Below are positions 1-17,600 of a stretch of 64,000 nt of DNA, piece after piece. Location of the stretch: positions 1-64,000 of the forward strand of contig CAMYYB010000003.1 of NCBI GenBank assembly GCA_947303335.1, written 5' to 3'. The notes beneath the pieces are model-generated. The model worked only from the letters and a program-made list of their open reading frames with translations. It was not told the origin of the DNA and did no database searches. Position 1 is the first letter of the stretch. Every line of letters starts with the position of its first letter. Source of the stretch: an uncultured Bacteroidales bacterium. GTDB lineage: Bacteria > Bacteroidota > Bacteroidia > Bacteroidales > F082. The translations under genes and the position numbers were made by a program.

Positions 1-64
1 TTTATCCATTTATTTCGCTTATTCCCCCCTTTTCCCTAATTCCGCCAACGGGTTGTATATATCA

Positions 65-1175: not shown

Positions 1176-1187
1176 GATAAATATAGA

Positions 1188-2435: not shown

Positions 2436-2483
2436 AAAAAAACAGATTATTATTACCCCCTCACGAAGGAGGCAAAGATGTTG

Positions 2484-2948: not shown

Positions 2949-3420
2949 TTACTTTATTAAGAACAGAAATCAGATTGGCAGTAGTGAAAAGAATGCCATT
3001 ATTCTTTTCCAAAACATTTCCCTTTTGTATGAAGTACACAAGTCGGTCAGCAGTAATAGTGATACCTGCTGTTCCGTTCTTGCCTGTGTAATCAAGATAA
3101 AGACAGCCCCTTGCATCCGGAAAAAGCACCCATCCTGAAAGTTGCTTTTCTGTAGCTCTATTGAGCGCCGTCCTCAGTTTTGTGACACACTGACGGTCTA
3201 TGGCTTTGCTCCCAACGCCATCCCAACCGTCCTCCAACTGGCTTAGAGAAGCCAATCGTACTGTCAACTCACGATGCAATTTCCCGCTTTTGCGCACAGA
3301 AGCCGATTTGCTCTCAGCACGCAACGACTTGACTTCTACAACCCCACGGAGCTGTTTGATGGCCGTTTTGAGTTGAGGAAGCATTGCATTTTCGTTGATG
3401 GTCACTACTAACTGTGTCAT
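2941..3420 (-). CDS. hypothetical protein, first gene of a coupled pair
   Basis: 159 residues, basic N-terminal half with a helical segment, then a motif of the form LSQLEDGWDGVGSKAID (about 80-96) seen in small Bacteroidota proteins often encoded next to a second short gene. No signal peptide. The stop codon overlaps the start of the 154-residue gene. A Bacteroides -7 element lies 24 nt upstream of the start, suggesting that this pair and the effector behind it can be transcribed separately from vgrG. Function unknown; an antitoxin-like or adaptor role is only a guess from gene layout. Confidence 0.7.
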   Translation of the reverse strand: MTQLVVTINENAMLPQLKTAIKQLRGVVEVKSLRAESKSASVRKSGKLHRELTVRLASLSQLEDGWDGVGSKAIDRQCVTKLRTALNRATEKQLSGWVLFPDARGCLYLDYTGKNGTAGITITADRLVYFIQKGNVLEKNNGILFTTANLISVLNKVNA

Positions 3421-3443
3421 AAGCTCAATTGATTTCTTGGCGG

Positions 3444-3475
3444 CAAAGGTACAATGTTTTTTTGGATTTAAGAAA
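3444..3475 (-). promoter_or_regulatory. probable promoter for the T6SS cargo module
   Basis: On the minus strand a perfect TAnnTTTG -7 box (TACCTTTG, plus coordinates 3444-3451) is followed upstream at 20-nt spacing by TTTC (3472-3475), one mismatch from the -33 TTTG. It lies in the 72-nt gap between vgrG and the first cargo gene. Confidence 0.5.
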
Positions 3476-3492
3476 TAGCCTGTATTTTTTTC

Positions 3493-5550: not shown

Positions 5551-5553
5551 GGG

Positions 5554-5964
5554 TTATGTCCATTCGTTAGTGAAGACAGCATTATCCATCAGTCCTCCTA
5601 TATGGATAATTTGCGCGCTGATGGTGACGGTGGTGTACATCAATTTGCTGTCGTTGTCGTTGAAATAGTCTTTGAGTTCAATGCAATAGGCATTGATGAA
5701 TTCCACGGTTTTAAAACTTTTCTTATTGTCGTTGGTATAGACGACAAACCTGAAATAGCCGGATTGCACCTCGGTTTTGTTGAACATCCATTTGTAGAAG
5801 AACAAATCCTCATCGCTGGTGGAGGGCATCACGAAGGTAATGCTGCCGCCTTGGGGTCGTGAGACAGGCTTGCCCGTCTCGTCAATGGATTGGTGGAAAT
5901 CGTAAGCGCATTCCACCACGCCGTATGTCTTGTCACCTATGGTAAGGCTGCCTTGAAGTGCCAT
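5554..5964 (-). CDS. tssD: T6SS tube protein Hcp/TssD, second copy
   Basis: 136 residues from the ATG at 5962-5964, chosen because the sequence then begins MALQGSLTIGDKTYGVVEC as in other Bacteroidetes TssD proteins; the open frame runs 17 codons further upstream to 6015 through a hairpin, which is unlikely coding. The sequence carries the family features: GGSITFVMPS, FYKWMF, then a C-terminal YTTVTISAQIIHIGG beta strand. It should form hexameric rings of the inner tube. It is a diverged paralog of the adjacent hcp and is 3 nt from vgrG. Confidence 0.92.
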   Translation of the reverse strand: MALQGSLTIGDKTYGVVECAYDFHQSIDETGKPVSRPQGGSITFVMPSTSDEDLFFYKWMFNKTEVQSGYFRFVVYTNDNKKSFKTVEFINAYCIELKDYFNDNDSKLMYTTVTISAQIIHIGGLMDNAVFTNEWT

Positions 5965-5989
5965 GATGTTGAGATTGATGGGGAGTCGC

Positions 5990-6015
5990 TTGGGGGAGGA
6001 AACGTCCTCCCCCAA
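5990..6015 (-). other. strong hairpin between the two hcp genes
   Basis: Perfect 11-bp inverted repeat (arms 5990-6000 and 6005-6015, mostly G:C) with the 4-nt loop AACG. On the minus strand it is not followed by a U-run, so it is better read as an RNA processing/stability or partial attenuation element separating hcp1 from hcp2-vgrG than as a terminator. Confidence 0.7.
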
Positions 6016-6036
6016 AAGCCTACTTCCGATGATGGA

Positions 6037-6441
6037 TTAATTGTCGATGGTCCAACGGTTGTTGTGACGGGCGTTGCCCACTTCGATTTCCTTGGCGGAA
6101 ATGGTGAACTCTTCGTACTGCTGCGTCTCATTCTTGTTGTCATAAGTCTCAGCATACTCCACCATATAGCCTTCCTTGAAGGAGAGGTGCTTCATCTCGC
6201 CACCTTGACGGTTGGGGAAGGAGATGGTGCCGCTCTTGCTCATGTAGGTGTCGCACATCCATTCCATGAGGTCGCTGTTGCCATCGTCGTTTGATTTCAC
6301 TTTAACATAGATCTTGCCACCACGGGTGGTACCAGTGGGTTGACCTTCGACGTCCGTCTGCTGGTTGAGCTCATAGCGGACATACATCACTTCGCGTTCG
6401 GCAATGCCGTCGGCATTGATAGTTACAGTTCTTGTAGCCAT
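6037..6441 (-). CDS. tssD: T6SS tube protein Hcp/TssD, first copy
   Basis: 134 residues, start MATRTVTINADGIAEREV. It shows the TssD pattern: TTRGGKIYVKVKSNDD, MEWMCDTYMS, and a C-terminal EFTISAKEIEVGN strand. It should form the inner tube inside the TssB/TssC sheath. It lies 66 nt downstream of tssC and ahead of a second hcp. Having two different Hcp proteins in one operon suggests mixed or cargo-specific tubes. Confidence 0.93.
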   Translation of the reverse strand: MATRTVTINADGIAEREVMYVRYELNQQTDVEGQPTGTTRGGKIYVKVKSNDDGNSDLMEWMCDTYMSKSGTISFPNRQGGEMKHLSFKEGYMVEYAETYDNKNETQQYEEFTISAKEIEVGNARHNNRWTIDN

Positions 6442-6507
6442 AGTTGTTAATGATTTAAGTTAATTAATGATTGAATTATTGATGGATAATTCGTGATGGT
6501 ACACGAT

Positions 6508-7890
6508 TTATTTCACGTCTTGTTCCCATTCGGCGCCAGCGGTGCCGTTGTGACCGGTCAGCTCGATGAAGAAGTTCTTGGCCGCGAAGAAAGGCTTCAG
6601 TTCCACTTCAATCTTGATGTCCTTGGTCTTCGGGTCTTGGTCAAGTTTCTTGAGATTGTAGTTTTCGATGAGTTTGCCAGGACCTTTGTAGTCGCTGAGG
6701 AAGTCATGGATGGCCTGCTGCAATTCGGCTTTGACGTTCGAGTTCCAGTTGATGAAGGCTTCGTCGTTGAAGAAGTTCTGGAACACCTTGCCAATCCAAT
6801 CGAACACACGGACGATGGGATACTCTTGCAAGCCGATGGTTGCACCGTTATACAGCGAGCGGTTGGAGAAGGCCATAGTACGTCCGTCTTCTTCCACCAT
6901 CGGGATAACGCCTTGGTCGATAAGAGCGGCGATTTGGGCTTTACGCAAGTCGAGGCGTGCGCCTTTCACATTGCTCATGGTGCCGTATTTCTTACCGGCT
7001 GCACCTTGGGCGATAACGATTTCCTCGGTGTTGGTCATGCGGCCTGCGAGAGCTCCTGAACCCGGCAGGTAGACATCATCGTCCTCACCGGCCAACTCGG
7101 ACTTCTTACGGCCCAGGATATAGTTGCAGGTCATGATGACATTGGCCAAGTGGGCATCCTGTCCTTGCAGGCTGGCATCATCGAGTTCGTCTTTCAGCAT
7201 CTCGAAGTTCAGGCTGTCCTTGAAGTCAGTCACCATGATGACCTTGTTGCGGTAGGCCGTGTCAGCCCACATCCTGATGGTGGTTGAATCGCCCAAATAG
7301 CCAGGTATCACAAGCAGGCTATAGTTGTTCTTCAGGTTCAATCTGTCATAGTATTGCTCCAGTTCCTCGCGGATGGCCTTGGTGTCTTCCGAGTCGTGCG
7401 AACCCAATTCTTCTTTGTTGACATTCATCAGCGTGAGGCAGTCAATTTTGCCTTGTCCCGCATTGGCGAAGAAAGCATCGAGGGCACGGTAGGCGACTTC
7501 CAACTTCCTGACTTCGTCATGAATGGTGAACAGGTTGTTCTTCACGTTCTCTTCGGCCTTGTCGCGTTTGGCCTTGCACGAATCAATGATGGCCATCGGG
7601 TCAGTGCCACCTTTTTCAAGGATGGAGACCCAAAGCTCCAGCTCGTTTTGCAGTTTCTTACGGGCATCCTTATAAGCCGCGTCGTTAAGGAAGATATTTT
7701 TGACGGCTTTACGTCGGGGATCCATGTTGTCAACACCCTTGAGGAGGCCTTTGAGCATCTGGAAACCGCCGAATTTATCCAAGCCACCGATACTTTCTTT
7801 CAGTAGCCCTTCGGGGTTTTCTATCTTTTTTCTTTCTTGAAGTTCAGGCGCTGCAGCCTGGGCTTCTTGTTTCATTTCTTCTGTAGCCAT
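6508..7890 (-). CDS. tssC: T6SS contractile sheath large subunit TssC
   Basis: 460 residues, close to the usual Bacteroidetes TssC length. Recognisable stretches include MDPRRKAVKNIFLNDAAY near 55, LVIPGYLGDSTTIRMW near 192, and a C-terminal EVELKPFFAAKNFFIELTGH that matches the sheath handshake region. The N-terminal 30 residues are charged and low-complexity. With TssB it polymerises around the Hcp tube and contracts to fire. It is 16 nt downstream of tssB and is disassembled by the ClpV encoded upstream. Confidence 0.95.
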   Translation of the reverse strand: MATEEMKQEAQAAAPELQERKKIENPEGLLKESIGGLDKFGGFQMLKGLLKGVDNMDPRRKAVKNIFLNDAAYKDARKKLQNELELWVSILEKGGTDPMAIIDSCKAKRDKAEENVKNNLFTIHDEVRKLEVAYRALDAFFANAGQGKIDCLTLMNVNKEELGSHDSEDTKAIREELEQYYDRLNLKNNYSLLVIPGYLGDSTTIRMWADTAYRNKVIMVTDFKDSLNFEMLKDELDDASLQGQDAHLANVIMTCNYILGRKKSELAGEDDDVYLPGSGALAGRMTNTEEIVIAQGAAGKKYGTMSNVKGARLDLRKAQIAALIDQGVIPMVEEDGRTMAFSNRSLYNGATIGLQEYPIVRVFDWIGKVFQNFFNDEAFINWNSNVKAELQQAIHDFLSDYKGPGKLIENYNLKKLDQDPKTKDIKIEVELKPFFAAKNFFIELTGHNGTAGAEWEQDVK

Positions 7891-7906
7891 AGTTGTAGTG
7901 TCTTAA

Positions 7907-8362
7907 TTATTGATTTTCTTCAAGTTCAGCTAATAAGGCTTTCAGTGCATTGGTAAGACTGCCACGTGCGGCATCGTCTTTCAGGGCGTTACGCAGGGTC
8001 TTGTTCTTTTCCAGTTGGGCGATGACGGAATTAAAGGCGTCTATTTTGCCTTTTTCCGTGCTGAGGAGTTCGCTCTGCCCGATGAGTTGCTCGTCTTCGA
8101 AGTCCTTGATGCATTTGAAGTCGAAATCTTCAAAAGCGGCACCACCTTCTTCGGTTTCGAGGGTGACGCCTTTCTTGCTGGGCTGGTAGTGTTCAAACAC
8201 TTCTTTCATGTTTTTGGCCTTGAAGCCTTCACGATCCTCGTCACTGCTCGGAGCCTCGTCGGTGAACTGGTCGGCATAGAGTGTACGGTTCTGCGGGAAT
8301 TCGATGATACCGTCCTGGGCATCAACGTCCAATACTTTCGATATTACAGTTTTTCTTGCCAT
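7907..8362 (-). CDS. tssB: T6SS contractile sheath small subunit TssB
   Basis: 151 residues from the ATG at 8360-8362 (MARKTVISKVLDVDAQDG). The open frame continues 34 codons upstream but that part overlaps the end of clpV and is basic and Gln-rich, unlike TssB. The protein has the family's FEDFDFKCIKDFEDEQLI block near 80 and a C-terminal helical domain (LEKNKTLRNALKDDAARG). It pairs with TssC to form the contractile sheath. The corrected start leaves a 34-nt gap after tssH. Confidence 0.93.
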   Translation of the reverse strand: MARKTVISKVLDVDAQDGIIEFPQNRTLYADQFTDEAPSSDEDREGFKAKNMKEVFEHYQPSKKGVTLETEEGGAAFEDFDFKCIKDFEDEQLIGQSELLSTEKGKIDAFNSVIAQLEKNKTLRNALKDDAARGSLTNALKALLAELEENQ

Positions 8363-8396
8363 AGGTTGATGTATTTGTTGATTATGTTGTTGATCA

Positions 8397-10679
8397 TCAA
8401 TTTGCTGTTTCGCTTGTTTCCTCGGGTGAATCAATCTCCCAAACCATTTCATGAGTTTCTTCATTGTACTTCATTATTACTGTGTCGCCGGGATTGATTT
8501 GGCCGGAGATAATGAGCTTGGAAAGCGGTCTGCGTATCTCCTTGCGGATGATGCCGAGGATGGGGCGGGCACCATAATGGGCGTTGAAGCCGACCTTGGT
8601 GATGTATTTACGTGCCGTCTCGTCAATCTCCAACTTGATGTTTTGCTCATTAAGAGTCTTCAGCAGATTCTTGATATGAATGTCAAAGATGCGGTCAATC
8701 ATCTCTTCGGTAATCGGCGAGAAGGGTACGATTTCGGTCAGACGGGCCAGGAACTCTGGACGGAACTGGCCTTGCATCACCTCAAGCAACTGGTCGTGGG
8801 TTGGCACCTTGCCTTCACCAAACGACTTGAAGATGTATTCACTACCGATGTTGGAGGTGAAGATGATAAGGGCGTTGGAGAAGTCGCCCACTCGACCTAA
8901 ACGGTCGTGCAGCTTGCCTTCGTCCAGAATCTGCAAGAAGAGGTCGAACACAGAACGGTGGGCTTTCTCAATCTCATCGAACAGCACCACTGAATAAGGA
9001 TGCTGACGAATCTGGTTCACCAACAAACCGCCTTCTTCGTAACCGACGTATCCGGGAGGCGCTCCATACAGCAAGGCCACCGAGTGCTCTTCCTTGTATT
9101 CCGACATGTCGAAACGCAACATGGCGGTCTCGTCATTAAAGAGGAACTCAGCAAGCGACTTGGCCAACTCCGTCTTACCTGTACCCGTAGGCCCGAGGAA
9201 GAAGAAGGAGCCGATGGGCTGTCCTTTTTTATTGAGGCCTGAACGCGACTCGAAGATGGCATCCAAGATGCTCTTGATGGCGTGGTTCTGACCTACAACG
9301 CGATTGTGGAGAATCTCCTCGGCGTTGGACAGTTTCTGTCTTTCCTCCGACTGGATGTTGCCCATAGGAATGCCCGTCATCTTGGAGACCACATCGCGCA
9401 CGGCTTCTTTTTCAAGTTGCTCTTGCTTGGGAGCCTGTTCGTCGGAAAGCGTAGCCATCTCGTTGGCAATCTTCACCGAGGCCATAGCGCGGTCGAGCAA
9501 GTCAAGAGCCGAAGCAGGCAGACGGCGGTCGGGCATATAGCGTTTGGCCAAACGGACAATCTCAGCCGGGACTTCTTCACCGATGGTGAGGTGGTGGTAT
9601 TGCTCATAGCTCTCACGACGCGACTTGATGATGTCGATGGCTTGTGCCTCATTGGGCTCCTCAACGGTGATTTTCTCGAAGTAGGCCGTGAATTCTTTGT
9701 CCTTTTCAATGTCTTTGGTATAGCCGTCGGTGGTGGTGGTGCAGATGATTTGCAGCTGGTTCTTAGACAACAGTTTCTTTATGGCGGGCAACAGTCCGTT
9801 CAACACAGATTGTTTGTCTTCCACACGGTGGAAGTTCTCAATCACCAAGATGGGTTGTGCCATGTTTTGCAAGGACTGTATCACCGTCTTGAAGCGGTCT
9901 TCAATCTCACCTTTATAGCTTACGCCTTGGCTCAAAGCAATCAGGTCGAGTTCGATGGGTTGCAGGTTTTCGAGCGAGGCAGGTACTTTCTTGTCGCGCA
10001 GCCTTTGCAGAATACCGTAGATGAGGCTCGTCTTCCCCACCCCAGTCTCGCCGACAATCAGCACATTGGCCCTGTCCTTGCGAGCCAGCACCTCGATGAG
10101 GGAGAGTATCTCTGCGTCAAAGCCGATGACCTCTGTCTCGGGCAACTCGTCCATCATCATGATGCAGTAGTCGGAGCTACCTGTGTCGGCAGCGGAAGAC
10201 ATATTATTAATATAGGTGGGCTGCTTTTTAGGGGCAGGTCCGTCGCCTTGCAGGGTCTTCAATATCTTGTCGGCCTGCAAAGGAAAGGTCTTCAGTTGCT
10301 CGTAGGTGAAGCCGATGCCCGGAGTGGCCAATGAGGCTAATAGGCAAGCTCCGTTAATCTCGTCCAAACCGTATTTCTCGCTGATTTCGATAGCTTCTTT
10401 GACAACGTTTTGTGCATCGTGCGACAGTTCGATGCCCTTCATCGCGTAAGGCGACTTCTCACATTGCTGCATCCGCATGTCGGCCCAGTCGACGAGGTAG
10501 TAGTAATCCTCGTCGAGGGTGTTCTCTATGAAATCGACCAATCCCGCACTTTTATGCAGCAATGCCCTCAGCAGGTGCGCCGGCTCAATCTTAGGCGACT
10601 TGTTGTCGTTGGCAAAAGACTGCGCAATGTGCGGCAGGTCGAAGGGAAGATTCTCTAACCGTTGTACGTATTTATCCAT
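8397..10679 (-). CDS. tssH: T6SS sheath-recycling AAA+ ATPase ClpV/TssH
   Basis: 760 residues, with two AAA+ modules. The N-domain is residues 1-145. Walker A motifs are GETGVGKT near 209 and GPTGTGKT near 494; the second module has the ClpB/ClpV-type VVLFDEIEKAH Walker B, an IIFTSNIGS sensor and the C-terminal GARPILGIIRKEI block. The middle region is short, as in Bacteroidetes TssH rather than ClpB. It unfolds contracted TssB/TssC sheaths in the cytoplasm. First structural gene of the T6SS operon, 16 nt downstream of the UpxY-like gene. Confidence 0.94.
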   Translation of the reverse strand: MDKYVQRLENLPFDLPHIAQSFANDNKSPKIEPAHLLRALLHKSAGLVDFIENTLDEDYYYLVDWADMRMQQCEKSPYAMKGIELSHDAQNVVKEAIEISEKYGLDEINGACLLASLATPGIGFTYEQLKTFPLQADKILKTLQGDGPAPKKQPTYINNMSSAADTGSSDYCIMMMDELPETEVIGFDAEILSLIEVLARKDRANVLIVGETGVGKTSLIYGILQRLRDKKVPASLENLQPIELDLIALSQGVSYKGEIEDRFKTVIQSLQNMAQPILVIENFHRVEDKQSVLNGLLPAIKKLLSKNQLQIICTTTTDGYTKDIEKDKEFTAYFEKITVEEPNEAQAIDIIKSRRESYEQYHHLTIGEEVPAEIVRLAKRYMPDRRLPASALDLLDRAMASVKIANEMATLSDEQAPKQEQLEKEAVRDVVSKMTGIPMGNIQSEERQKLSNAEEILHNRVVGQNHAIKSILDAIFESRSGLNKKGQPIGSFFFLGPTGTGKTELAKSLAEFLFNDETAMLRFDMSEYKEEHSVALLYGAPPGYVGYEEGGLLVNQIRQHPYSVVLFDEIEKAHRSVFDLFLQILDEGKLHDRLGRVGDFSNALIIFTSNIGSEYIFKSFGEGKVPTHDQLLEVMQGQFRPEFLARLTEIVPFSPITEEMIDRIFDIHIKNLLKTLNEQNIKLEIDETARKYITKVGFNAHYGARPILGIIRKEIRRPLSKLIISGQINPGDTVIMKYNEETHEMVWEIDSPEETSETAN

Positions 10680-10695: not shown

Positions 10696-11229
10696 TTATA
10701 TCAGCGACAGTTGGCTGGCAGGCACAAAAGCTATGGCCACAGCTGCCACGCCTTCCAGTTGAACCACTACCCGCTTGTTCTTGTTAATCCTTTTGATAAC
10801 GCCTTCCACTCCAGCGAAGAATCCCTCATTGACCTTCACACGCTGGCCTACCTTATTGATGAACGCATTGTTGTCAAGAAACATCACACGGTCATCCTGC
10901 ACCGAGGCCACACGCATGAAGTTGTCCATCTGCATGTCGGGGACTTGCAATATTTCACCCTTGGACTCACCTGACACAGACTTTTTCATCATATATCGCA
11001 TCGGGGCAAACTCCTCGCGGCACATCTTCAGACGGGTCAGGAATTCCTGGGTAGAACGGACAAAAATCAAATTGTGGATGGCAGGTGAAAGCACACGCTT
11101 CTTTCCTCCCGTTTTGGCTTCCACCAGCTCATAATGCATGGGAAGGAAACACTCAACGCCCAGCTCATCAAGCAAGGCTTTGATTTTCATTTCCCTATGA
11201 TAGGTGACGCGCATGGGAAACCAACGCAC
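10696..11229 (-). CDS. UpxY-family (NusG-like) transcription antiterminator
   Basis: 177 residues. N-terminal NGN-like domain (RWFPMRVTYHREMKIKALLD, then FLPMHYEL and PAIHNLIFV) and C-terminal KOW domain (VGQRVKVNEGFFAGVEGVIKRINKNKRV, about 130-160). This is the UpxY type known at the head of Bacteroides capsule operons, where it lets RNA polymerase read through its own 5' leader. The conserved W is at residue 3 if the GTG at 11227-11229 is used; ATG at 11212-11214 would cut the domain. No in-frame ATG exists upstream before the stop at 11332-11334. Placement as first gene of a T6SS operon is unusual. Confidence 0.87.
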   Translation of the reverse strand: MRWFPMRVTYHREMKIKALLDELGVECFLPMHYELVEAKTGGKKRVLSPAIHNLIFVRSTQEFLTRLKMCREEFAPMRYMMKKSVSGESKGEILQVPDMQMDNFMRVASVQDDRVMFLDNNAFINKVGQRVKVNEGFFAGVEGVIKRINKNKRVVVQLEGVAAVAIAFVPASQLSLI

Positions 11230-11265: not shown

Positions 11266-11284
11266 GGGGGGGGGGGGGGGGGGG
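11266..11284. repeat. 19-nt homopolymer (G on plus, C in the upxY leader)
   Basis: Uninterrupted run of 19 G on the plus strand, so 19 C in the transcript leading to the UpxY-like gene, 37-55 nt upstream of its GTG. It lies downstream of the predicted promoter, within the 5' leader. It may be length-variable in the population. Poly-G can also be a base-calling artefact of two-colour sequencing, so the exact length is uncertain. Confidence 0.85.
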
Positions 11285-11427: not shown

Positions 11428-11458
11428 CAAAAATAAATAATTTTGAAAAGCGAGCAAA
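11428..11458 (-). promoter_or_regulatory. Bacteroides-type promoter of the UpxY-T6SS operon
   Basis: On the minus strand TTTG (plus 11455-11458), a spacer of exactly 19 nt, and TATTTTTG (plus 11428-11435) match the sigma-ABfr consensus TTTG-N19-21-TAnnTTTG without a mismatch. The predicted start near 11421 gives a leader of about 190 nt before the UpxY-like gene, which includes the poly-C tract. Confidence 0.75.
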
Positions 11459-11546
11459 ATTTAAACAAAATATTTTCGCAGCTCGAATGCCTAATTGAGA
11501 ATGAAAAAAATTCATGAATCCCACTCGCGGTCTGCCTCCCCCTCCT

Positions 11547-11589
11547 GTTCATAACCCTGTTGATAAGTTGTTCACAACCCTGTTGATAA
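11547..11589. repeat. two direct repeats with TTATCAACA boxes
   Basis: Two 20-nt direct repeats (11547-11566 and 11570-11589) differ at one position. Each contains TGTTGATAA, whose complement TTATCAACA is one or two bases from the DnaA-box consensus TTATCCACA. They lie about 100 nt upstream of the plus-strand island, which encodes a DnaA-domain-IV-like protein. Confidence 0.6.
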
Positions 11590-11673
11590 TTTTTCACAAA
11601 ACAGGACATTGAATATTCCAAACTAAATTCCTATATTTGTCGCGTTTGTGGGAGGGATGATGTCCCTTTTAAC

Positions 11674-12642
11674 ATGGGATTAACAATGTTCGGGAGCAGA
11701 TTGTATGGAGCCGTGTCTACCATCAGACTCATATCACCCAATGCGACCGGCAAGGTTCGGCAAGGACGACCTGGACAGCGTCCCGACACCCCTTTCTTCA
11801 ATCCTCCATCGTCGACCGACGACGAGGAAAGGCTGAATTTCAAGCTAACAGAACGAATAAGAGATGCGGAACGCATCATGGCGCTGACTGGCCCAGACGA
11901 ACCCAAGAAATGGAAAGGCATCAGAGGCCTGTTGAAAAAGATGCGCAACGAATTCCCTTATCTGATCGATGACAGCACTTGGCTGGAACTCAGGTTCGAG
12001 AAGACCGTCGGCGGCGTGACGGATAAGGCACGGGGATTTCTCAACTTCAGCCAGTTCATCGAGGTCAAGGACTCCGCAGCCACCATCGACAAGCACCACC
12101 AGTACATCGTCACCCAAGGCTGGCGCGTCGTGAGCGGCGACAATGAGCGCGAGACCCTTCGTGCCGAGGACCTGCTGCTGATGCTCTATACCGCCCTCAG
12201 GTATGAGCTGGAAGACCACGAGAACTTCGAATCCTATTTTGTGGATGACGACGAATCAGAGGAACCCGCCGCCAACGTGATACCTATGCCCCACTTCGGC
12301 TTTGAAAATGGCGAAAGGGAGCAGGAACGCTGGGAGACTGCTTACAAAGTTCTGACTAACGAGGGCTTTATCAGGCGCAACGAAGTCGGCTGCAACAACT
12401 GGGTCTATATCTGTTGCGGCGAAAAGACGCCCCCAAAAGGCCCCATTGTGTGGTACGGAAGCACTGCTTCTTTGGCGTATCTCGTAAGGGAGCATCTTCA
12501 GGGCCAATGGGATAAGGCCAAGGAAATTTTTTGCCTTGACAAGGGCAAACCTTTCCCTGCTTCTTTCAAAACGACCCACAAACCCATCGATAAAGTGGCA
12601 AAACGCATCGACCGGGCCTTCCCGGCCACTAATTCCCACTAA
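11674..12642 (+). CDS. hypothetical protein, first gene of the plus-strand island
   Basis: 322-residue cytoplasmic protein. I do not recognise the family with certainty. The N-terminal 60 residues are basic and Gly/Pro-rich; a central acidic segment (YELEDHENFESYFVDDDESEEPAAN, split by loops) precedes a C-terminal part with PIVWYGSTASLAYLVREHL near 260, similar in pattern to the winged 'W-x-G-S-x-x-x-L-x-x-L' segment of RteC-like proteins from Bacteroides mobile elements. This resemblance is only a pattern, not a homology call. Start: the ATG at 11674 is used; the next in-frame ATG is at residue 5. Followed by an iteron region. Confidence 0.7.
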   Translation: MGLTMFGSRLYGAVSTIRLISPNATGKVRQGRPGQRPDTPFFNPPSSTDDEERLNFKLTERIRDAERIMALTGPDEPKKWKGIRGLLKKMRNEFPYLIDDSTWLELRFEKTVGGVTDKARGFLNFSQFIEVKDSAATIDKHHQYIVTQGWRVVSGDNERETLRAEDLLLMLYTALRYELEDHENFESYFVDDDESEEPAANVIPMPHFGFENGEREQERWETAYKVLTNEGFIRRNEVGCNNWVYICCGEKTPPKGPIVWYGSTASLAYLVREHLQGQWDKAKEIFCLDKGKPFPASFKTTHKPIDKVAKRIDRAFPATNSH

Positions 12643-12677
12643 CCTCTTCAAAAATTTTTCATGAAGGTCTCAAACCG

Positions 12678-12756
12678 TCCACTACATTTCCACTAAAATT
12701 CCACTAAATATCCACTAAATATCAGCTAAATGCTAATTAGTGGTTTTTTAGCTGAT
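12678..12756. repeat. iteron-like CCACTAAAT array with hairpin
   Basis: Four tandem near-copies of an 11-nt unit with core CCACTAAA (about 12678-12720), then ATCAGCTAAA (12721-12730) whose inverse TTTAGCTGAT is at 12747-12756, enclosing an inverted CCACTAA at 12737-12743. The array lies just upstream of the DnaA-IV-like gene. The layout resembles plasmid or phage iterons, or operator repeats. Confidence 0.75.
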
Positions 12757-12802
12757 TTTCAGCGTTTTAAATGCTGATTTTTGCCGCAAATTCTTACGGA
12801 AA

Positions 12803-13219
12803 ATGAAAGCAAGACAAGACCTGAAAAACACCCTGTCAGCCCTCGCACAAGGCTTGGGCGTAACGAAAAAGGACCTCCTCTCCCACTGTCGCAAGGTCGA
12901 GCTGGTGGACGCCCGCTCGATGATTGTCGCCGTGCTGATGGAACACGCCCACCTGCGCCAGCAGGACGTGGCCCCGCTGCTTGACATCACCCAATCTGCC
13001 GTGAGCTGGCTTCTCATCCGCCACCGACTCATGATGAAGCACCCGGGCGGCAACCCCGACTACCAGAAACGCTTTGCCGAGTTTGTGATGAAAGCCCTCA
13101 CCCCCCTGCCCCCCTCTCCCAAAGGCGAGGGGGACGCGAAGCGACGCAAAGACTCTGCGTCCGGCAGGCATCCCTCTCCACCATGGAGAGGGGCCGGGGG
13201 TGAGGTCAAAAAAAACTGA
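12803..13219 (+). CDS. DnaA domain IV-like DNA-binding protein
   Basis: 138 residues. Residues about 22-75 (KKDLLSHCRKVELVDARSMI followed by AVLMEHAHLRQQDVAPLLDI and a TQSAVSWLLIRHR end) follow the DnaA C-terminal domain IV layout: basic helix, an ELVDAR helix corresponding to 'r-e-x-v-x-A-R', then a helix-turn-helix. There is no AAA+ domain. The C-terminal 35 residues (from about 100) are encoded by an inserted dispersed repeat and are probably not functional. It should bind DNA, plausibly the iterons immediately upstream. Its native C-terminus may be missing. Confidence 0.75.
   Translation: MKARQDLKNTLSALAQGLGVTKKDLLSHCRKVELVDARSMIVAVLMEHAHLRQQDVAPLLDITQSAVSWLLIRHRLMMKHPGGNPDYQKRFAEFVMKALTPLPPSPKGEGDAKRRKDSASGRHPSPPWRGAGGEVKKN
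13098..13205. repeat. dispersed inverted-repeat element inside a gene
   Basis: A G/C-rich composite element: arms CCTCACCCCCCTGCCCCCCT (from 13098) and its near-complement ending GGGGGTGAGG (to 13205), with an internal perfect 9-bp hairpin CCCTCTCCA/TGGAGAGGG at 13172-13180 and 13184-13192. It is in frame with, and supplies the tail of, the DnaA-IV-like protein. Confidence 0.7.
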
Positions 13220-13267
13220 CGATCCGGATCAATAATCAATAATTTATTAACCATTAAAAGTACCACA

Positions 13268-13489
13268 ATGAAACAACATTTGAAAATCGGAGAGTACTCC
13301 GTCTACGACAAAAAGACCTTCCGCTGCAAGGCCGACAACCACAGCCAAAAGAAACGCTGCCTCCTCTGCGACTTGCGCGACTACAACCTGTGCCCCTACG
13401 TGGCCTGCCAGCCCGATGAGCGCGACGACCACAAGGCCGTCATCTTCAAGCTGACCAGAAAATACAAAAAGGAGCAAGGCAATGGATGA
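13268..13489 (+). CDS. small Cys/His-rich protein
   Basis: 73 residues with six Cys: FRCKADN, RCLLCDL and LCPYVACQP, plus a conserved-looking basic C-terminus, consistent with a small zinc-binding fold. The stop overlaps the start of the RecA-fold ATPase gene (ATG at 13482), so it is translationally coupled to it and probably works with it. Family not recognised; function unknown. Confidence 0.75.
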   Translation: MKQHLKIGEYSVYDKKTFRCKADNHSQKKRCLLCDLRDYNLCPYVACQPDERDDHKAVIFKLTRKYKKEQGNG

Positions 13490-14468
13490 CGAGCGCGACT
13501 ATGCCGCCATGATAGGCGACGAACTGGCCAACGCCGACGCGATGCGCGACAGCACCCCCGAAACAGTGGGGGTGCTCCGCATCAAGACGGCCAACGAGAC
13601 CCTCAGCGAGGCGCAACGCCGACCCGACCCTACTCCCCTGTGGCTGTCCCTCTGGTATGAAGGCGAGGTGTGCTGCCTCTTCGCCGACAGCAACCTCGGC
13701 AAGTCCATCTATGCCGTGCAGATTGGCGAGGTCATCGCCTACACACAAAAAGTGCTGTACTTCGACTTCGAGCTGTCCGACAAGCAGTTCCAACTGCGCT
13801 ACACGGATGAACAAGACCATCTGTACCAGTTTTCCAACAACTTCTATCGGGTCGAGATTGACAGAGAATCGTTGGACGTGGCCAACTTCGAGGACCTCCT
13901 GATCAACAACATCGAAGCGGCGGCGCTGCAATACGGGGCAAAGGTATTGATTATCGACAACCTGACCTGGCTGTGCTGCAACAGCGAACAAGGCGAAGAT
14001 GCCGGACAGTTCATGAAACGCCTGATGGCCCTCAAGAAGAAGCACGACCTCTCGCTGCTCATCATCGCCCACACACCCAAACGCAACCTGTCGAGTCCCA
14101 TCACCGCCAACGACTTGGCTGGCAGCAAGAAGCTGTACAATTTTTTCGACAGCTGCTTCGCCATCGGACAGAGCGCGAAGGACAGCGGACTGCGCTACAT
14201 CAAGCAGATGAAGAACCGTCACGGCGAGTTCGTCTACGACGCCGAGAACGTCATCGTGTGCCAGATCGAGAAAATCGAAGCCTTCCTTCAGTTCACGACG
14301 ATTGGATACGCGACAGAGCGGGAGCACCTGAGGCGTCCCACCGAGAACGATGTGTCCCAGGACATCATTTCAGTCAAGGAATTGAATCAACAGGGACTAT
14401 CCGTAAGAGAAATCGCTAAACAATTGAATATGAGCAAATCTAAAGTCCATAGAATACTGAAATGCTGA
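13482..14468 (+). CDS. RepA/RadA-like RecA-fold ATPase with C-terminal HTH
   Basis: 328 residues. Walker A FADSNLGKS near 66-74, Walker B KVLIIDNLTWL near 154-164, and IIAHTPKR near 196, the layout of AAA_25 (RepA-type hexameric helicase/RadA-like) proteins. The C-terminal 40 residues contain VKELNQQGLSVREIAKQLN plus MSKSKVHRILK, a Fis/Hin-type helix-turn-helix. It probably acts as a DNA-loading helicase or motor in element replication. Encoded between the Cys-rich protein and a TOPRIM-like protein, across an iteron-like hairpin. Confidence 0.8.
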   Translation: MDDERDYAAMIGDELANADAMRDSTPETVGVLRIKTANETLSEAQRRPDPTPLWLSLWYEGEVCCLFADSNLGKSIYAVQIGEVIAYTQKVLYFDFELSDKQFQLRYTDEQDHLYQFSNNFYRVEIDRESLDVANFEDLLINNIEAAALQYGAKVLIIDNLTWLCCNSEQGEDAGQFMKRLMALKKKHDLSLLIIAHTPKRNLSSPITANDLAGSKKLYNFFDSCFAIGQSAKDSGLRYIKQMKNRHGEFVYDAENVIVCQIEKIEAFLQFTTIGYATEREHLRRPTENDVSQDIISVKELNQQGLSVREIAKQLNMSKSKVHRILKC

Positions 14469-14480
14469 CGCGGCCTTAGT

Positions 14481-14572
14481 GTCCCGCTCTGTCCCACACT
14501 GTCCCACTGTCCCTTATAGGGACAGGTGGGACACTTGGGACACCTGGGACACTTGGGACACTTTGGGACACC
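14481..14572. repeat. TGTCCCA/TGGGACA inverted tandem repeat array
   Basis: Four copies of TGTCCC-type units are followed by five TGGGACA units in the opposite sense, centred on CTGTCCC-TTATA-GGGACAG (14507-14525). The stem can be extended through 14501-14532 with a one-base bulge. The array fills the gap between the RecA-fold ATPase and the DUF6371 gene. Confidence 0.85.
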
Positions 14573-14587
14573 AAATCATCAAACATC

Positions 14588-15556
14588 ATGTATCATCTAC
14601 AGAAATACCGCACCAAAGCCTCACGCCACGAGTGTCCGAACTGCCACGACCGGCATTCGTTCACCTACTACGTTGACGAAAACGAGGAACCACTTGACCC
14701 CATCTGCGGCCGCTGCAACCATGAGACCCGATGCAAATATCACTACACGCCGAAACAATACTTTCAGAACCACCCCGTTGACCGCAAGGCGAAGCGGCCT
14801 TTCATCCCTAAGATGCAGCTCATCACCAAGCCGCCACAGCCGCTATGTACCCTACCCTTCAGCTATGTGAGGCAGTCGGCGAGCTACAACAGCACCTTCG
14901 TCCGCTTTCTCTGCGGCCTGTTCGACAAAGGCAGACTCGACTGCCCTACCGTCAGACGGCTCGGCGAGCTGTATGCCCTCGGCGCCACCAAGGAAAGGGA
15001 GGTCATCTTCTGGCAAATCGACGTGAAAGGTCGCGTCAGGAGCGGCAAAATCATGCGGTACGGCGAGGACGGGCATAGGGTCAAAACGGGTGGCGGCACG
15101 GACTGGATCCACTCCAAGCTGATGAAAACCGGTCTGTTGCCTGCCGACTGGCAGCTGACGCAATGCCTCTTCGGCGAGCATTTGCTCAACTGGTCGACCA
15201 ACCGCGACAAGGTGGTGGCCCTCGTGGAGAGCGAGAAATCAGCCCTCATCGGTGCCGCCTGCTTCCCCGACTACGTCTGGTTGGCCACAGGAGGCAAGTC
15301 GCAACTCGCCTCCGACAAGATGAAGGTGCTGTCGGGCAGGACGGTAATCATGTTTCCCGACGTGGACGGCTACCACGACTGGAAGGAAAAAGCCAAGGAG
15401 CTCATCTACTGCAAGGTGACCGTATCGGATATCCTTGAGCGAAACGCCACCGACGACGAACGCAACGCCAAAATCGACATCGCCGACTGGCTCGTCAAAC
15501 AGCTGCAGGACAGGGACACGAAAATAGCGTCTAACATTGACTTCAATTCCGCGTAA
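14588..15556 (+). CDS. zinc-ribbon/TOPRIM-like DUF6371 protein
   Basis: 322 residues. N-terminal zinc ribbon with CPNCH (16-20) and CGRCN (about 40-44) next to a YTPKQYFQNHP segment, then a C-terminal region with VALVESEKSALIGA near 210 and a VIMFPDVDGYHDW block near 255, matching the acidic motifs of TOPRIM-like folds. This arrangement fits the DUF6371/CHC2-primase-like family found in Bacteroidetes phages and elements. It may act as a primase or DNA-binding partner of the preceding helicase-like protein. The catalytic function is inferred, not shown. Confidence 0.75.
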   Translation: MYHLQKYRTKASRHECPNCHDRHSFTYYVDENEEPLDPICGRCNHETRCKYHYTPKQYFQNHPVDRKAKRPFIPKMQLITKPPQPLCTLPFSYVRQSASYNSTFVRFLCGLFDKGRLDCPTVRRLGELYALGATKEREVIFWQIDVKGRVRSGKIMRYGEDGHRVKTGGGTDWIHSKLMKTGLLPADWQLTQCLFGEHLLNWSTNRDKVVALVESEKSALIGAACFPDYVWLATGGKSQLASDKMKVLSGRTVIMFPDVDGYHDWKEKAKELIYCKVTVSDILERNATDDERNAKIDIADWLVKQLQDRDTKIASNIDFNSA

Positions 15557-15578
15557 CAATGACTCCAACACCTTCCAA

Positions 15579-15632
15579 CTTTGACACTCCTTTGATACAA
15601 CCTTGACTCACCTTTGACTTACCTTTGACTTA
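15579..15632. repeat. CCTTTGACTTA direct repeat array
   Basis: Five imperfect direct copies of a C(C)TTTGAC core at about 15579, 15590, 15601, 15611 and 15622; the last two are identical over 11 nt (15611-15621 and 15622-15632). They lie in the 249-nt gap between the DUF6371 gene and the next gene. Confidence 0.75.
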
Positions 15633-15715
15633 GCCCTAACGCCCAAAAAAACGTCATCGCGGAAAAAAGTTATTTGTACAAATAACTAATTGTCAGCTGT
15701 TTGAAATAAAGTTCG

Positions 15716-15723
15716 TATCTTTG
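15716..15723 (+). promoter_or_regulatory. Bacteroides -7 promoter element
   Basis: TATCTTTG matches TAnnTTTG, 82 nt upstream of the ATG at 15806. No TTTG occurs at 19-21 nt spacing (one is at 12 nt), so only the -7 box is supported. Confidence 0.45.
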
Positions 15724-15805
15724 CATCGTCTTAAGACAAGGACCAAAAACCAAAATTACCAAACCAATTAACCTAATTCATTAACCAACCAAAAACCTTA
15801 AAACC

Positions 15806-16855
15806 ATGGCAAGAATTGTTTCAATCTTCCAGTTCACCGGACGCGCCGGATCGGCCGTCGGTTACAAGGGCAAAAACGGAAAAATCGCCCTTCGTCAGTA
15901 TCAACCTTCAATGGCGGACCGCCGCACCCAGGCTCAGATGAGCCAGCGTGCCAAAATCAAGCTCGCTTCGCAAGTGGCAGGTATGCTCGGCGAGGTAGGC
16001 CGCACCGCCCTCATCGCCAACGGTCAGCGCAAGACCGACCGCGGACAGCTCATCAAGCAGCTGCTGAAGAGCATCAAGGTCAACGGCACCAAGGCCTCCT
16101 TGGGCTACGACCTCAACCTGGTCAACAACCCCAGCTACGCCGAGAGCATCAGCGTCGTCATCACCTCTGAGACTTCCGCTTTCGTGGCCACCTTCTCCGG
16201 TGCCGCAGAGGGTGAAGTCATCGCCAAGGCCATCCTGGTTCACGACCTCGCCACCGGCAACTGGCGCCGCACCTCGGGGATGGACTCCAACACGACCATC
16301 GCCATCAGCAAGAGTGCCAACGAGGCTGGCGACGCACTCGAAGTGTTCGCCTACGGCATCGTCCTGCAGCCCAAGACTAACGAGGGCTTCAACAACATCG
16401 GCCAGACGGGTGCCAACTCCACCGGCTACGTCATCGACTTGAACATGGTGAACTCCTCCAACTTCGCTTTCTCGCCTTGCGTGAGCGCAGCCCTCAACGT
16501 GGAGGGCGACGGCACCACGAGCGGTGGCAACGGCAGCAGCGGCCCTTCGACAGGCTCAGGGACCGGTTCAGGCTCAGACACCGTCCAAGCGCCCACCATC
16601 AGCGGAACGACGCCTTTCGCTGAGACGACCCAAGTGAGCATCACGGGTCCTGACGACGCCCGCGTGTACTACACCACCGACGGCACCACGCCGACCTCTG
16701 AAAGCACACTCTACACAGCGGCTTTCACCCTGAGCGCGACGACCACCGTCAAGGCTGTCGCCATCAAGGAGGGCATTAGCAGCTCGGTGACGACCAAGAC
16801 CTTCACCAAGGCCGCTGGCGGCGGCAACGGCGGGGATGACCCCTTCGCGGGATGA
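15806..16855 (+). CDS. two-domain island protein with C-terminal chitobiase-like domain
   Basis: 349 residues, no signal peptide. The N-terminal domain (1-230) starts MARIVSIFQFTGRAGSAVGY and has the pattern G-R-x-G-x-x-V-G-Y-K-G then QAQMSQRAKIKLA, seen in short Bacteroidota proteins that resemble DUF6266. A Gly/Ser linker (about 233-252), partly made by a dispersed repeat, leads to a CHB_HEX_C-type domain (VYYTTDGTTPTSESTLYTAAF) and a Gly/Asp tail. Role unknown; a particle or surface-associated structural role is possible. The Ala/Gly-rich composition resembles phage structural proteins, but no phage family was recognised. Confidence 0.75.
   Translation: MARIVSIFQFTGRAGSAVGYKGKNGKIALRQYQPSMADRRTQAQMSQRAKIKLASQVAGMLGEVGRTALIANGQRKTDRGQLIKQLLKSIKVNGTKASLGYDLNLVNNPSYAESISVVITSETSAFVATFSGAAEGEVIAKAILVHDLATGNWRRTSGMDSNTTIAISKSANEAGDALEVFAYGIVLQPKTNEGFNNIGQTGANSTGYVIDLNMVNSSNFAFSPCVSAALNVEGDGTTSGGNGSSGPSTGSGTGSGSDTVQAPTISGTTPFAETTQVSITGPDDARVYYTTDGTTPTSESTLYTAAFTLSATTTVKAVAIKEGISSSVTTKTFTKAAGGGNGGDDPFAG
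16543..16564. repeat. dispersed repeat within the linker
   Basis: A 22-nt imperfect palindrome beginning CCCTTCGACAGGCTCAGGG, a sequence type that recurs as an intergenic repeat in many bacterial genomes. Here it is in frame and encodes part of the Ser/Gly/Thr linker. Confidence 0.55.
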
Positions 16856-16879
16856 TGAACCTTCTAAATCCATTGCACT

Positions 16880-16996
16880 ATGAACAAGAAGCGCATCATC
16901 GAGATTGTGGTGAAGATGTTAGTAGCCGCTCTCACAGCTTTCATTACTGCGATAACAACCACGAGTTGTATGGGTAGAGGGCCGATCTTCCTTTAG
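16880..16996 (+). CDS. 38-residue 'smalltalk'-type membrane peptide
   Basis: Short gene with ATG at 16880 and TAG at 16994-16996. The peptide is MNKKRIIEIVVKMLVAALTA, then FITAITTTSCMGRGPIFL: a basic start, one hydrophobic helix and a Cys after TTTS that resembles a loose lipobox. Size, composition and position just upstream of a cell-wall hydrolase match the Bacteroidetes 'smalltalk' protein family, whose function is unknown. It lies 24 nt after the two-domain protein. A holin- or spanin-like role is inference from its pairing with the M15 peptidase. Confidence 0.75.
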   Translation: MNKKRIIEIVVKMLVAALTAFITAITTTSCMGRGPIFL

Positions 16997-17050
16997 TTGA
17001 GAGTTGACAGTTGACAGTTGACAGTTGGGCTGGCGGCGATGCCGCCAGCC
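16995..17050. repeat. AGTTGAC tandem array and 10-bp hairpin
   Basis: Three perfect copies of the 7-nt unit AGTTGAC (17002-17022), flanked by degenerate copies at 16995 and 17023, are followed by a perfect inverted repeat GGCTGGCGGC/GCCGCCAGCC (17028-17037 and 17041-17050) with loop GAT. No U-run follows, so it is not a standard terminator. Confidence 0.75.
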
Positions 17051-17074
17051 CTGTTTCTTGAAAACGACAACATC

Positions 17075-17533
17075 ATGAAATACTTTACCATAAGCGAACT
17101 GATTAGGAGCGAAACGGCTCTGAAGCACGGCATCTGGAACGGTGCCAGCCAGGAGGTGGAGGACAACCTCATCGCCCTCGTGGACAATGTCCTCGATCCC
17201 TTGCGCGAAGCCTACGGCAAGCCCATCCGCGTCACCAGCGGCTACCGCTGCCCACGACTGAACCGCCTCGTCGGCGGCGCACCCAACAGCCAGCACATGC
17301 GCGGCGAAGCGGCTGACATCGTGGCCAGTACCCTTGGCGCAGGGGATTGCGGGTCAAAGCCCGCAATGAGGGTATCGGGGGGTGAAAACCTGAAGCTCGG
17401 TAAACTCATAGAGCAGCTCGGCCACTTCGACCAGCTCATCTATGAGCAATGCGACGAGTACGGCTATCCCCGCTGGATTCACGTCAGCTACAAGCGCCTC
17501 GGCTGGAACCGCAGGCAAGTGCTGTACACGTAA
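17075..17533 (+). CDS. M15-family (M15_3) peptidase, endolysin-like
   Basis: 152 residues from the ATG at 17075, chosen because MKYFTISELIRSETA is the usual family start; upstream codons read through a hairpin. Zinc site motifs are SQHMRGEAADIV near 70 and WIHVSY near 135, preceded by VTSGYRCPRLN. These enzymes cleave peptidoglycan peptides (D,D- or L,D-bonds). Between the two metal motifs is an insert of about 20 residues coming from a palindromic repeat, probably in a loop. No signal peptide, as in phage endolysins, so delivery would need a partner such as the small membrane peptide upstream. Confidence 0.85.
   Translation: MKYFTISELIRSETALKHGIWNGASQEVEDNLIALVDNVLDPLREAYGKPIRVTSGYRCPRLNRLVGGAPNSQHMRGEAADIVASTLGAGDCGSKPAMRVSGGENLKLGKLIEQLGHFDQLIYEQCDEYGYPRWIHVSYKRLGWNRRQVLYT
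17346..17367. repeat. palindromic repeat inside the M15 gene
   Basis: Perfect 8-bp inverted repeat ATTGCGGG/CCCGCAAT (17346-17353 and 17360-17367) with a 6-nt spacer. It is in frame and codes for the loop between the two zinc motifs, a segment usually absent from M15_3 proteins. Confidence 0.7.
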
Positions 17534-17555
17534 TCATGTAAATCCTTCCGCACCT

Positions 17556-17600
17556 CTGGTGCTCATCATCCATCATGATGATGAGCACCAGTTGCGTTTT
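17556..17600 (+). terminator. rho-independent terminator closing the island
   Basis: Perfect 14-15 bp stem CTGGTGCTCATCAT/ATGATGAGCACCAG (17556-17569 and 17578-17591) followed by TTGCGTTTTTT. It lies 22 nt after the M15 stop on the plus strand and separates the island from the convergent T9SS gene. Confidence 0.85.

Follow-up and report, generated by a model that had tools for sequence, protein, structure and literature searches.

What brings replication genes and lysis-type genes together in one short run of a bacterial chromosome, with no integrase recognised among them? The question is raised by eight genes, g1 to g8, at positions 11674-17533 of a 64,000-nucleotide stretch from an uncultured Bacteroidales bacterium (GTDB lineage F082; contig CAMYYB010000003.1, positions 1 to 64,000; hereafter the window). 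All eight lie on the plus strand between minus-strand genes, as an earlier note made from the sequence alone had described and as gene calls bear out; that note saw in them a single element, replicated by its first half and released by a lysis pair at its end. We find two modules, a division that we regard as firm. We further propose, with a probability of roughly one half, that the island is the junction of a release device resembling a type 10 secretion system (T10SS; g6-g8) and the stranded replicon of an integrative mobilizable element (IME; g2-g5 and their arrays).

The eight genes do not travel together

The eight-gene combination was met nowhere else in our searches, and its parts have different distributions. 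Among 99 same-genus genomes, g1 is present only in its own and g2 in two, and g4-g5 and g6-like genes occur apart, so that the idea of one element found no support. The earlier note had named unrelatedness of the genes in other genomes as an outcome that would speak against it, and about half of this was found: g4 and g5 stay paired, and g6-like genes occur many times without them. Most of the identities it had assigned stand, namely AAA_25 for g4, DUF6371 for g5 and an M15 peptidase for g8; the smalltalk assignment of g7 is marginal, and the likeness of g2 to DnaA domain IV is weak, with scores below the cut-off. As it had also stated, the eight proteins include no recognised capsid, portal, terminase, integrase or relaxase (Pfam, NCBIfam and PHROG; for integrase and relaxase, the remaining window was judged by eye only), except for weak matches of g4 confined to its helix-turn-helix (HTH) part, such as one to a terminase small subunit (E 0.0012, PHROG).

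g2-g5 resemble the replication module of mobilizable elements

The reading of the first half as a replication module was upheld, as it combines a helicase, a primase-like gene and an inverted array that mobilizable elements carry at the same junction. Eight plasmid records, from Bacteroides, Phocaeicola and Butyricimonas, encode AAA ATPases 55% identical to the RepA-like g4 over the full length (coverage at least 80%). In both of the records that were read, the ATPase gene is followed by a DUF6371 gene and then by one for mobilization; genes for an integrase and for proteins of excisionase or HTH type lie close by, a gene content that we take to be Tn4555-like. In the genus, g4 has matches in 4 of 40 genomes, its own included; in two of these (G019 and G024), the copy is 63-68% identical to g4, a g5 copy with 66-68% identity comes after it and, judged by eye, HTH-like and integrase-like genes come before it. 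Relatives of the pair outside the window adjoin integrase genes, annotated in L020 and L021 and seen by eye in L026 and L027, and g6-g8 are absent there. The phage collection holds four records matching g4, two of them full-length at 55%. A PDB sequence search returned only an HTH match for g4 (E 0.0014) and nothing useful for g5. We regard g5 as a putative primase on three grounds: the zinc ribbon, the presence of DUF6371 and a PHROG match to a primase, which is weak (E 7.6e-4).

Between g4 and g5 lies an array of the word TGTCCC followed by its reverse complement. An inverted array occupies this junction in all four modules examined, of the same kind in L020, L021 and L026 and built on another word (TTCTCA/TGAGAA) in L027. 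The array strand folds into a long hairpin, with z-scores of -7.4 in the window and -11.5 in L026 against 60 mononucleotide shuffles. The pairing of a RepA-like gene with DUF6371 and an inverted array, by which we recognise IME-type modules, is found in g4-g5.

g2 scores 18.6 bits against Bac_DnaA_C (cut-off 31.5). Judged by eye, its conserved part comprises about the first 96 codons (about 12803-13090), and its 3' end appears to be palindromic repeat DNA (13080-13210). A single-sequence AlphaFold 2 model of g2 was too poor (pLDDT 53.5) and was not used.

In the mechanism that we propose, g2 would bind the 11-bp iterons upstream of it, g4 would act as a RepA-type helicase and g5 as a primase, and the TGTCCC/GGGACA hairpin would be the priming or initiation site, a division of labour like that of IncQ plasmids. 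RSF1010 is described as replicating with helicase RepA, primase RepB', initiator RepC and ssi sites (PMC4538821). The comparison is one of analogy: helicase, primase-like protein, putative initiator, iterons and hairpin site have their counterparts here, whereas g5 is a DUF6371 protein, in which AEP primase activity would be conjecture, and g2 is likened to RepC by its putative role. With Tn4555-like IMEs, module 1 shares the RepA-like AAA ATPase, DUF6371 and the GGGACA-type inverted array at their junction; it differs in having a DnaA-like g2 with its own iterons in place of an excisionase-like HTH gene, and in lacking a recognised integrase or relaxase, for which reason it is probably stranded in the chromosome.

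g6 belongs to a dispersed family with a constant Ig tail

From its N-terminus, g6 reads as a DUF6266-like domain of helices and an FN3/Ig-like sandwich, a Gly/Ser linker and a C-terminal Fn3_assoc/CHB_HEX_C immunoglobulin (Ig) domain, ending in GGNGGDDPFAG. The FN3-like sandwich is a structure prediction, and the VIA-align check of the model chiefly covers residues 108-337, so that the helices stay tentative. The link to DUF6266 runs through the relative L016, which scores 50.7 bits with the Pfam model (40.0 for L061): profile A1, which contains L016, matches g6 at 22.7 bits. In phmmer searches, the N-domain of g6 also matches L095 and L099 (E 2-3e-4). HU-HIG (PF18291) has no g6 match in Pfam at E <= 1.

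The genome of the window (2.66 Mb, 71% complete) contains nine Ig-tailed copies with swapped N-terminal domains: five of g6 type (the window, C29, C8, C4 and C37, the last cut by its contig start), C17 with a DUF6266 domain, and C22, C86 and C13 with HU-HIG domains; at the level of loci, HU-HIG matches fall in L015, L017 and L018. In the full-length copies, the common DNA begins at about 15667-15770 and runs to 16995, taking in the upstream region together with g6 and g7. The similarity ends near the end of g7, which, on DNA evidence, places g8 outside the dispersed unit. Copies with other N-terminal domains have in common a shorter block comprising the Ig domain and g7, with 93% identity over 408 bp in C22 and 85% in C17; C86 shares 79% over 16540-16853, without g7. 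The pattern of sharing therefore defines a constant 3' Ig-smalltalk block and a swapped 5' domain. g7 is present in seven of the nine copies. Across six pairs of g6 copies, the ratio of nonsynonymous to synonymous substitution rates (dN/dS) lies at 0.22-0.29, and across five pairs of g7 copies at 0-0.09; g6 and g7 are therefore proteins under purifying selection.

Four HU-HIG proteins without Ig in the same genome (L196, L197, L198 and L202) share the GGDDPFAG tail with g6. More generally, a Gly-rich stretch followed by a short terminal motif is seen in these four and in L214, L233 and L234, the motif being GGDDPFAG in the own genome and of EAPDP type in another; it is possibly a docking tag.

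Ig-tailed relatives stand beside phage-type lysis genes

Outside the own genome, 40 same-genus genomes yielded five clear Ig-tailed relatives (L057 to L061), a count that leaves out Fn3 domains in larger or other frames, and each of the five lies no more than about 3 kb from a gene of M15 or Amidase_2 type. In L059 and L061, an M15 gene is followed by an N-terminally hydrophobic (transmembrane) protein whose gene overlaps a lipoprotein-like gene, which is how i-spanin and o-spanin genes are laid out as a pair; the label is based on this layout and on reading, in place of a family match. When the 99 genus genomes were searched with an N-terminal domain labelled X-type, 14 full matches came to light, spread over 13 genomes other than the own, which itself has one fragment. 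A smalltalk-like peptide comes next in ten of the 14, an M15 gene stands before in seven (in L058 with an intervening minus-strand open reading frame, ORF) and an amidase match follows in seven. A similar small protein follows the X-type gene in L262 and L263, that of L263 having no Pfam match. The four most divergent matches (54-58% identical), one of which ends near a contig end, have no M15, amidase or smalltalk-like neighbour. DUF6266 genes more widely are followed by a holin, a lysozyme-like protein and a spanin-like lipoprotein in 12 of 80 loci, the seed locus among them. In L095, the holin is Phage_holin_4_1, above the Pfam cut-off, and the lipoprotein matches 10 phage records, in one of which (MT838663.1) it stands directly beside an M15 match.

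g8 is itself a phage-type lysin, with matches in 795 phage records and a motif, SQHMRGEAAD, that aligns to 1LBU; direct reading of its N-terminus, MKYFTISELIRSETALKHG, reveals no signal peptide. Compared with its L061 counterpart, g8 appears by eye to carry a short in-frame insertion (17337-17394). g7 reaches 23.5 bits with DUF6486 (PF20096; Pfam cut-off 22.7) and 18.3 bits with smalltalk (NF033879; NCBIfam cut-off 24.7), and matches no holin family in Pfam, NCBIfam or PHROG. Neither g6 nor the X-type domain has a match in 50,697 phage records, where L016 and L017 have partial matches only, in 2 and 4 records. The plasmid collection has no match to g6, and no full-length phage relative was found. 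In viral contigs, DUF6266 has three relatives, of which one matches over only 61 residues, and g6 has none; neither the genome-contig nor the viral-contig collection has a close relative of g6. To judge from gene content, a phage-type lysin beside a g6 unmatched in phages fits a lysis set that was domesticated and has a partner of non-phage kind. That the island itself is a prophage fragment was rejected, as no structural gene was recognised and g6 is unmatched in the phage and plasmid collections.

The lysis pair of the earlier note thus stands as regards phage-type lysis families, and release, the function that we infer as best supported for g6-g8, stays a proposal drawn from the genes. In this proposal, g6-g8 would be a chromosomal cargo-plus-lysis cassette acting like a T10SS: g6 would fold in the cytoplasm, g7 would open or weaken the inner membrane in some cells, g8, having no signal peptide, would reach and cut the peptidoglycan, and g6, a sticky, antibody-like two-Ig protein, would be released and bind something outside. 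The precedent is a set of holin, endolysin, i-spanin and o-spanin with linked cargo (PMC10847048, PMC9527704). Like the systems of Serratia (ChiWXYZ) and Yersinia (YenLC), the cassette has an endolysin-type hydrolase without signal peptide, a small membrane protein and a linked candidate cargo, with a spanin-like pair in two same-genus relatives (L059 and L061). It differs in that the candidate cargo is an Ig-tailed, domain-swapping protein and that g7 is a 38-aa smalltalk peptide instead of a recognised holin. Since no spanin pair was recognised in the island, we say that it would work like a T10SS and do not file it as a member.

Several observations weigh against this reading. g6 itself does not reach the Pfam model of DUF6266 (PF19781). 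M15 or amidase matches lie near only two of the nine own-genome Ig-type copies, M15 in the window and an amidase at C13; the other seven have none recognised nearby, and g6-g7 therefore stand without g8. At the loci in general, 65 of 80 with DUF6266 have none of the lysis families searched, and an amidase match occurs in only 5 of 40 HU-HIG loci, a lower bound, as the hidden Markov models are insensitive and the count is to be read together with the ORF list. g7 has only 38 aa and a lipoprotein-like TTSC end, its holin role is conjectural, and the Cys of this end is replaced by Y in one copy and by G in one relative. A terminator-like hairpin separates g7 from g8, and no spanin was recognised in the window or island. 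For module 1, the two records with full-length phage matches of g4 bear no annotation, are labelled 'Bacteriophage sp.' and measure 6.3 and 11.4 kb. Separately, a rule that DUF6266 or HU genes always have lysis neighbours was discarded (at least one lysis family in 15 of 80 DUF6266 loci, amidase in 5 of 40 HU-HIG loci).

Inverted arrays and g2-like genes as possible links between the two halves

We counted as an inverted array any 6-mer that occurs at least 3 times in 55 bp and whose reverse complement is repeated in the same way no more than 260 bp away. Such arrays occur at 11 places in 278 kb of own-genome loci, whereas 400 kb from other parts of the own genome gave 2 and a single shuffled control gave 0; elsewhere, order loci (753 kb) yielded 8 and named loci (1.0 Mb) yielded 1, and further ones lie in L263, L266, L269 (two) and L270. 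Of the other Ig-type genes in the own genome, seven have upstream sequence and, unexpectedly, four of these (L011, L013, L015 and L016) have an array within 600 bp upstream, each with its own word and, in the last three, with an AT-rich palindrome inside; L012, L017 and L018 have none within that distance. The window array is located 1.2 kb upstream of g6, inside the replication module. Arrays are also found beside L202, an HU-HIG gene without Ig, and beside the HU-HIG remnant at 53.2-53.6 kb of the window, and those of L012, L013 (second), L019 and L202 (second), among the 11, lie away from such genes. The probability of at least 4 of 8 under random placement is about 1e-8, shared ancestry being ignored. 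On sequence grounds, the association of arrays with Ig-type genes is strong within this genome; the arrays may serve as origins, as regulatory sites or as targets in cruciform form. In other genomes, none of the five Ig-tailed genes has an upstream inverted array, and two X-type genes without Ig and without lysis neighbours have one (L266, 68 bp; L269, 147 bp).

Ordinary tandem arrays follow no general rule: they precede 3 of 42 genes in the HU group (Ig-tailed ones included) and 12 of 105 in the DUF6266 group (L016 and L061 included) versus 42 of 809 controls, and the idea that all DUF6266/HU-HIG genes have them was rejected. In the Ig-tailed class they precede 9 of 13 genes, or 6 of 13 without three AT-rich arrays next to the start codon; these counts exclude C37, whose beginning coincides with a contig end.

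In the 99 genus genomes, three loci carry a g2-like gene, in the own genome and in G020 (the latter weak, E 6.8e-5), all 0.4-3.6 kb from a DUF6266-Ig-type gene (window, L011 and L061). Such proximity has a probability of about 1e-6 under random placement, so that more than chance may lie behind the association of the two halves. The g2-like gene of L011 stands at the head of a run that includes a BT4734_N/DUF3987 protein; the arrangement is parallel to that of the window, with another gene of helicase-primase type. The g2-like gene of L061 has a gene of the phage-integrase family next to it. PD-(D/E)XK/Rpn-like nuclease genes are seen by eye near the inverted arrays upstream of the Ig-type genes in L011, L013 and L015.

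Alternative explanations

The island could be a neutral mosaic without present joint function, in which g2-g5 are what is left of a decayed IME, g7-g8 are relics of prophage lysis genes, and g6, lying beside them, is an Ig gene of repeat-like character. The restriction of the eight-gene set to one genome, the rarity of g1 and g2, the lack of a recognised integrase or relaxase and the island-free flank in two genomes described below all fit such a history. All eight reading frames are open, however, g6 and g7 copies are under purifying selection, and the gene order around g6-like proteins recurs in the genus; we consider a mosaic possible, though unlikely.

Burroughs and colleagues are said to have proposed in 2017 that Bacteroidetes HU expansions pre-empt mobile elements, from which one may imagine an anti-invader or abortive system whose Ig-tailed HU-HIG or DUF6266 proteins sense foreign DNA and whose g7-g8 kill the cell. 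N-terminal domains do vary within one genome, and several Ig-tailed paralogs adjoin, by eye, restriction-modification-like or other variable genes. Against this, the presence of spanin-like genes and of two hydrolases is easier to reconcile with release than with sensing, an FN3-like sandwich is predicted within the N-domain of g6, and a PADLOC scan gave no convincing defence model (best E 0.00098), so that identity with a known defence system was dropped and the idea as a whole appears quite improbable. HU-HIG neighbourhoods include DUF4248, DUF3987, HU, smalltalk and amidase genes. The island shares with the HU-HIG expansion (PF18291) the multiple copies, Gly-rich tail and Ig fusion, and sometimes a nearby smalltalk, amidase or primase-type gene; it differs in that g6 has a DUF6266-like domain instead of HU and that its helicase-primase genes are of the RepA/DUF6371 kind.

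A more speculative reading, to which we give little credence, makes the Ig-smalltalk cassettes a family of capsid-less, replicon-like elements that would release a nucleoprotein or DNA-binding Ig protein on purpose, for example into the extracellular DNA matrix. Each would have an origin-like array with its own word, as in plasmid incompatibility groups, a swapped N-module (HU or DUF6266-like), a constant Ig tail and a lysis part. It is suggested by the arrays upstream of four of seven own-genome Ig-type genes and by the same architecture in IME replication modules; the absence of arrays from all five Ig-tailed genes of other genomes speaks against it, though L266 and L269 have one.

Very doubtful, too, is a remodelling of the cell's own wall by M15 or amidase during capsule or surface switching, with g6 as a surface protein and no lysis. 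Four operons of M15/X/smalltalk type (L260, L263, L264 and L265) do lie, by eye, among polysaccharide-type genes, but g8 has no visible signal peptide, two relatives have spanin-like pairs, and T10SSs have proved lytic in two other bacteria (PMC10847048).

Least probable is the weak whole-island idea of the earlier note, an active capsid-less element: by way of its arrays it would excise, or replicate where it lies, and its lysis genes would set it free together with g6. The origin-like arrays beside replication genes, the genes of lysis type, the nearness of all three g2-like genes to DUF6266-Ig genes and the full-length g4 relatives in two phage-labelled records would suit it, but integrase and relaxase are not recognised, convincing end repeats are missing among those listed, and the gene combination is not conserved.

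Boundaries, flanks and further features

Table 1. Positions of the genes, arrays and signals of the island within the window.
Feature	Position	Strand	Remarks
Direct repeat, 23 bp x2.4	11546..11599	.	Left island edge; one TTWTNCACA (DnaA-box-like) match at 11590-11598
g1, 322 aa	11674..12642	+	No Pfam/NCBIfam family at E <= 1, no PHROG match
Iteron-like array, TCCACTAAATA-type, 11 bp x4.9	12678..12731	.	Directly upstream of g2
g2, HTH/DnaA-domain-IV-like	12803..13219	+	Weak Pfam matches below cut-off
g3, 73 aa, Cys-rich mini-protein	13268..13489	+	No Pfam or NCBIfam family at E <= 1
g4, RepA-like AAA_25 helicase/ATPase with C-terminal HTH	13482..14468	+	AAA_25, 5.7e-13
Inverted word array, [TGTCCC]x4 then [GGGACA]x6	14480..14572	.	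Between g4 and g5; origin/ssi candidate
g5, zinc ribbon and DUF6371, primase-like	14588..15556	+	Zn_ribbon_16; DUF6371, 3.2e-48
Direct array, CTTTGACTTAC-type, 11 bp x4.6	15579..15629	.	Upstream of g6
Candidate -7 box, TATCTTTG	15716..15723	+	Upstream of g6; read from the sequence, not among pattern-search matches
g6, 349 aa, two-Ig protein	15806..16855	+	Domain reading, relatives, predicted structure
Ig-smalltalk block	16588..16995	+	Common to copies with other N-terminal domains
g7, 38 aa, smalltalk/DUF6486 membrane peptide	16880..16996	+	Ends TTTSCMG..; proposed holin- or lysis-lipopeptide-like
AGTTGAC x4.7 array and terminator-like 11-pair hairpin	16995..17027 and 17027..17051	+	Between g7 and g8
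g8, 152 aa, M15_3 endolysin-type peptidase	17075..17533	+	Peptidase_M15_3, 7.4e-21; PHROG endolysin, 5.4e-37
Strong terminator	17556..17591	+	15-pair stem; island end

The strong terminator that the earlier note had placed at the island end was recovered, and five short tandem arrays that it had missed lie in the gaps (Table 1). The attachment-like boundaries that it had suggested looking for near 11,540 and 17,600 did not materialise: no convincing direct repeat joins both ends among the matches listed (20 of 37 direct families, 19 inverted pairs), and no tRNA or Rfam anchor was found at the thresholds used. A cluster of DnaA boxes at the left edge was likewise rejected, as TTWTNCACA is not enriched in the window (4 found versus 5.06 expected). 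Transcription as a single operon is unclear, given the candidate box before g6, which we take to be a Bacteroidales-like -7 box and which has no -33 box at the searched spacing, and the hairpin between g7 and g8.

To the left, a minus-strand UpxY-type antiterminator (10696-11229; NCBIfam, 141 bits versus a cut-off of 100) reads into a Bacteroidales type VI secretion system (T6SS) locus, also on the minus strand (1-10679), with TssD, TssC and VgrG-type proteins by Pfam and a ClpV-like protein by eye. Two same-genus genomes, with ClpV 90-91% identical, have the UpxY-ClpV flank without the island; both differ from the window at their other flank, so that no exact empty site is available. A run of 19 G (11266-11284) lies between UpxY and a minus-strand TANNTTTG promoter-like site (11428-11458), and could reflect phase-variable T6SS control or else be an assembly feature. 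To the right, minus-strand genes for repeat-rich proteins begin at 17607. Farther on, the HU-HIG gene remnant (53232-53613), with an inverted ACTCACTT/AAGTGAGT array, matches two segments of the C22 copy, at 88.7% and 93.5% identity, and adjoins, by eye, restriction-modification-like genes.

Elsewhere, an SNase-family nuclease gene (7394-7969, minus strand) directly follows the spanin-like lipoprotein in the Ig-lysis cassette of L061. DUF6266 genes form tandem runs of three to five in L165, L169, L174, L182, L186 and L189, and in L134-L139, L142, L168, L173, L185 and L190 they follow a protein of about 145 aa (HFFILNKGLNSGKPL..PCPNCF) and recurrent upstream DNA. These latter units are 72-97% identical in DNA between different Bacteroidota records, with no transposase visible by eye, and represent a possible unrecognised mobile unit.

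Implications for Bacteroidales

Smalltalk and amidase genes recur across Bacteroidales, to our knowledge without a known role. Searches of a collection of open-access articles listed no publication on DUF6266, and nothing that proposes a release role for DUF6266 or smalltalk/DUF4248/HU-HIG or a type 10 secretion or lysis cassette in Bacteroidales. Smalltalk and DUF4248 appear as expression-table entries (PMC10434189), and a DUF4248 gene was studied in another setting (PMC6231650). A 2017 review states that replication of excised IMEs had never been studied (PMC5704250).

Placing smalltalk and amidase genes in M15/amidase/spanin-like operons around Ig-tailed proteins not known from phages turns this puzzle into a testable one. 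If the proposed release holds true, Bacteroidales would possess many small type 10-like release devices. On the side of module 1, the inverted array at the RepA/DUF6371 junction offers a concrete candidate origin for the mobilizable elements of these bacteria.

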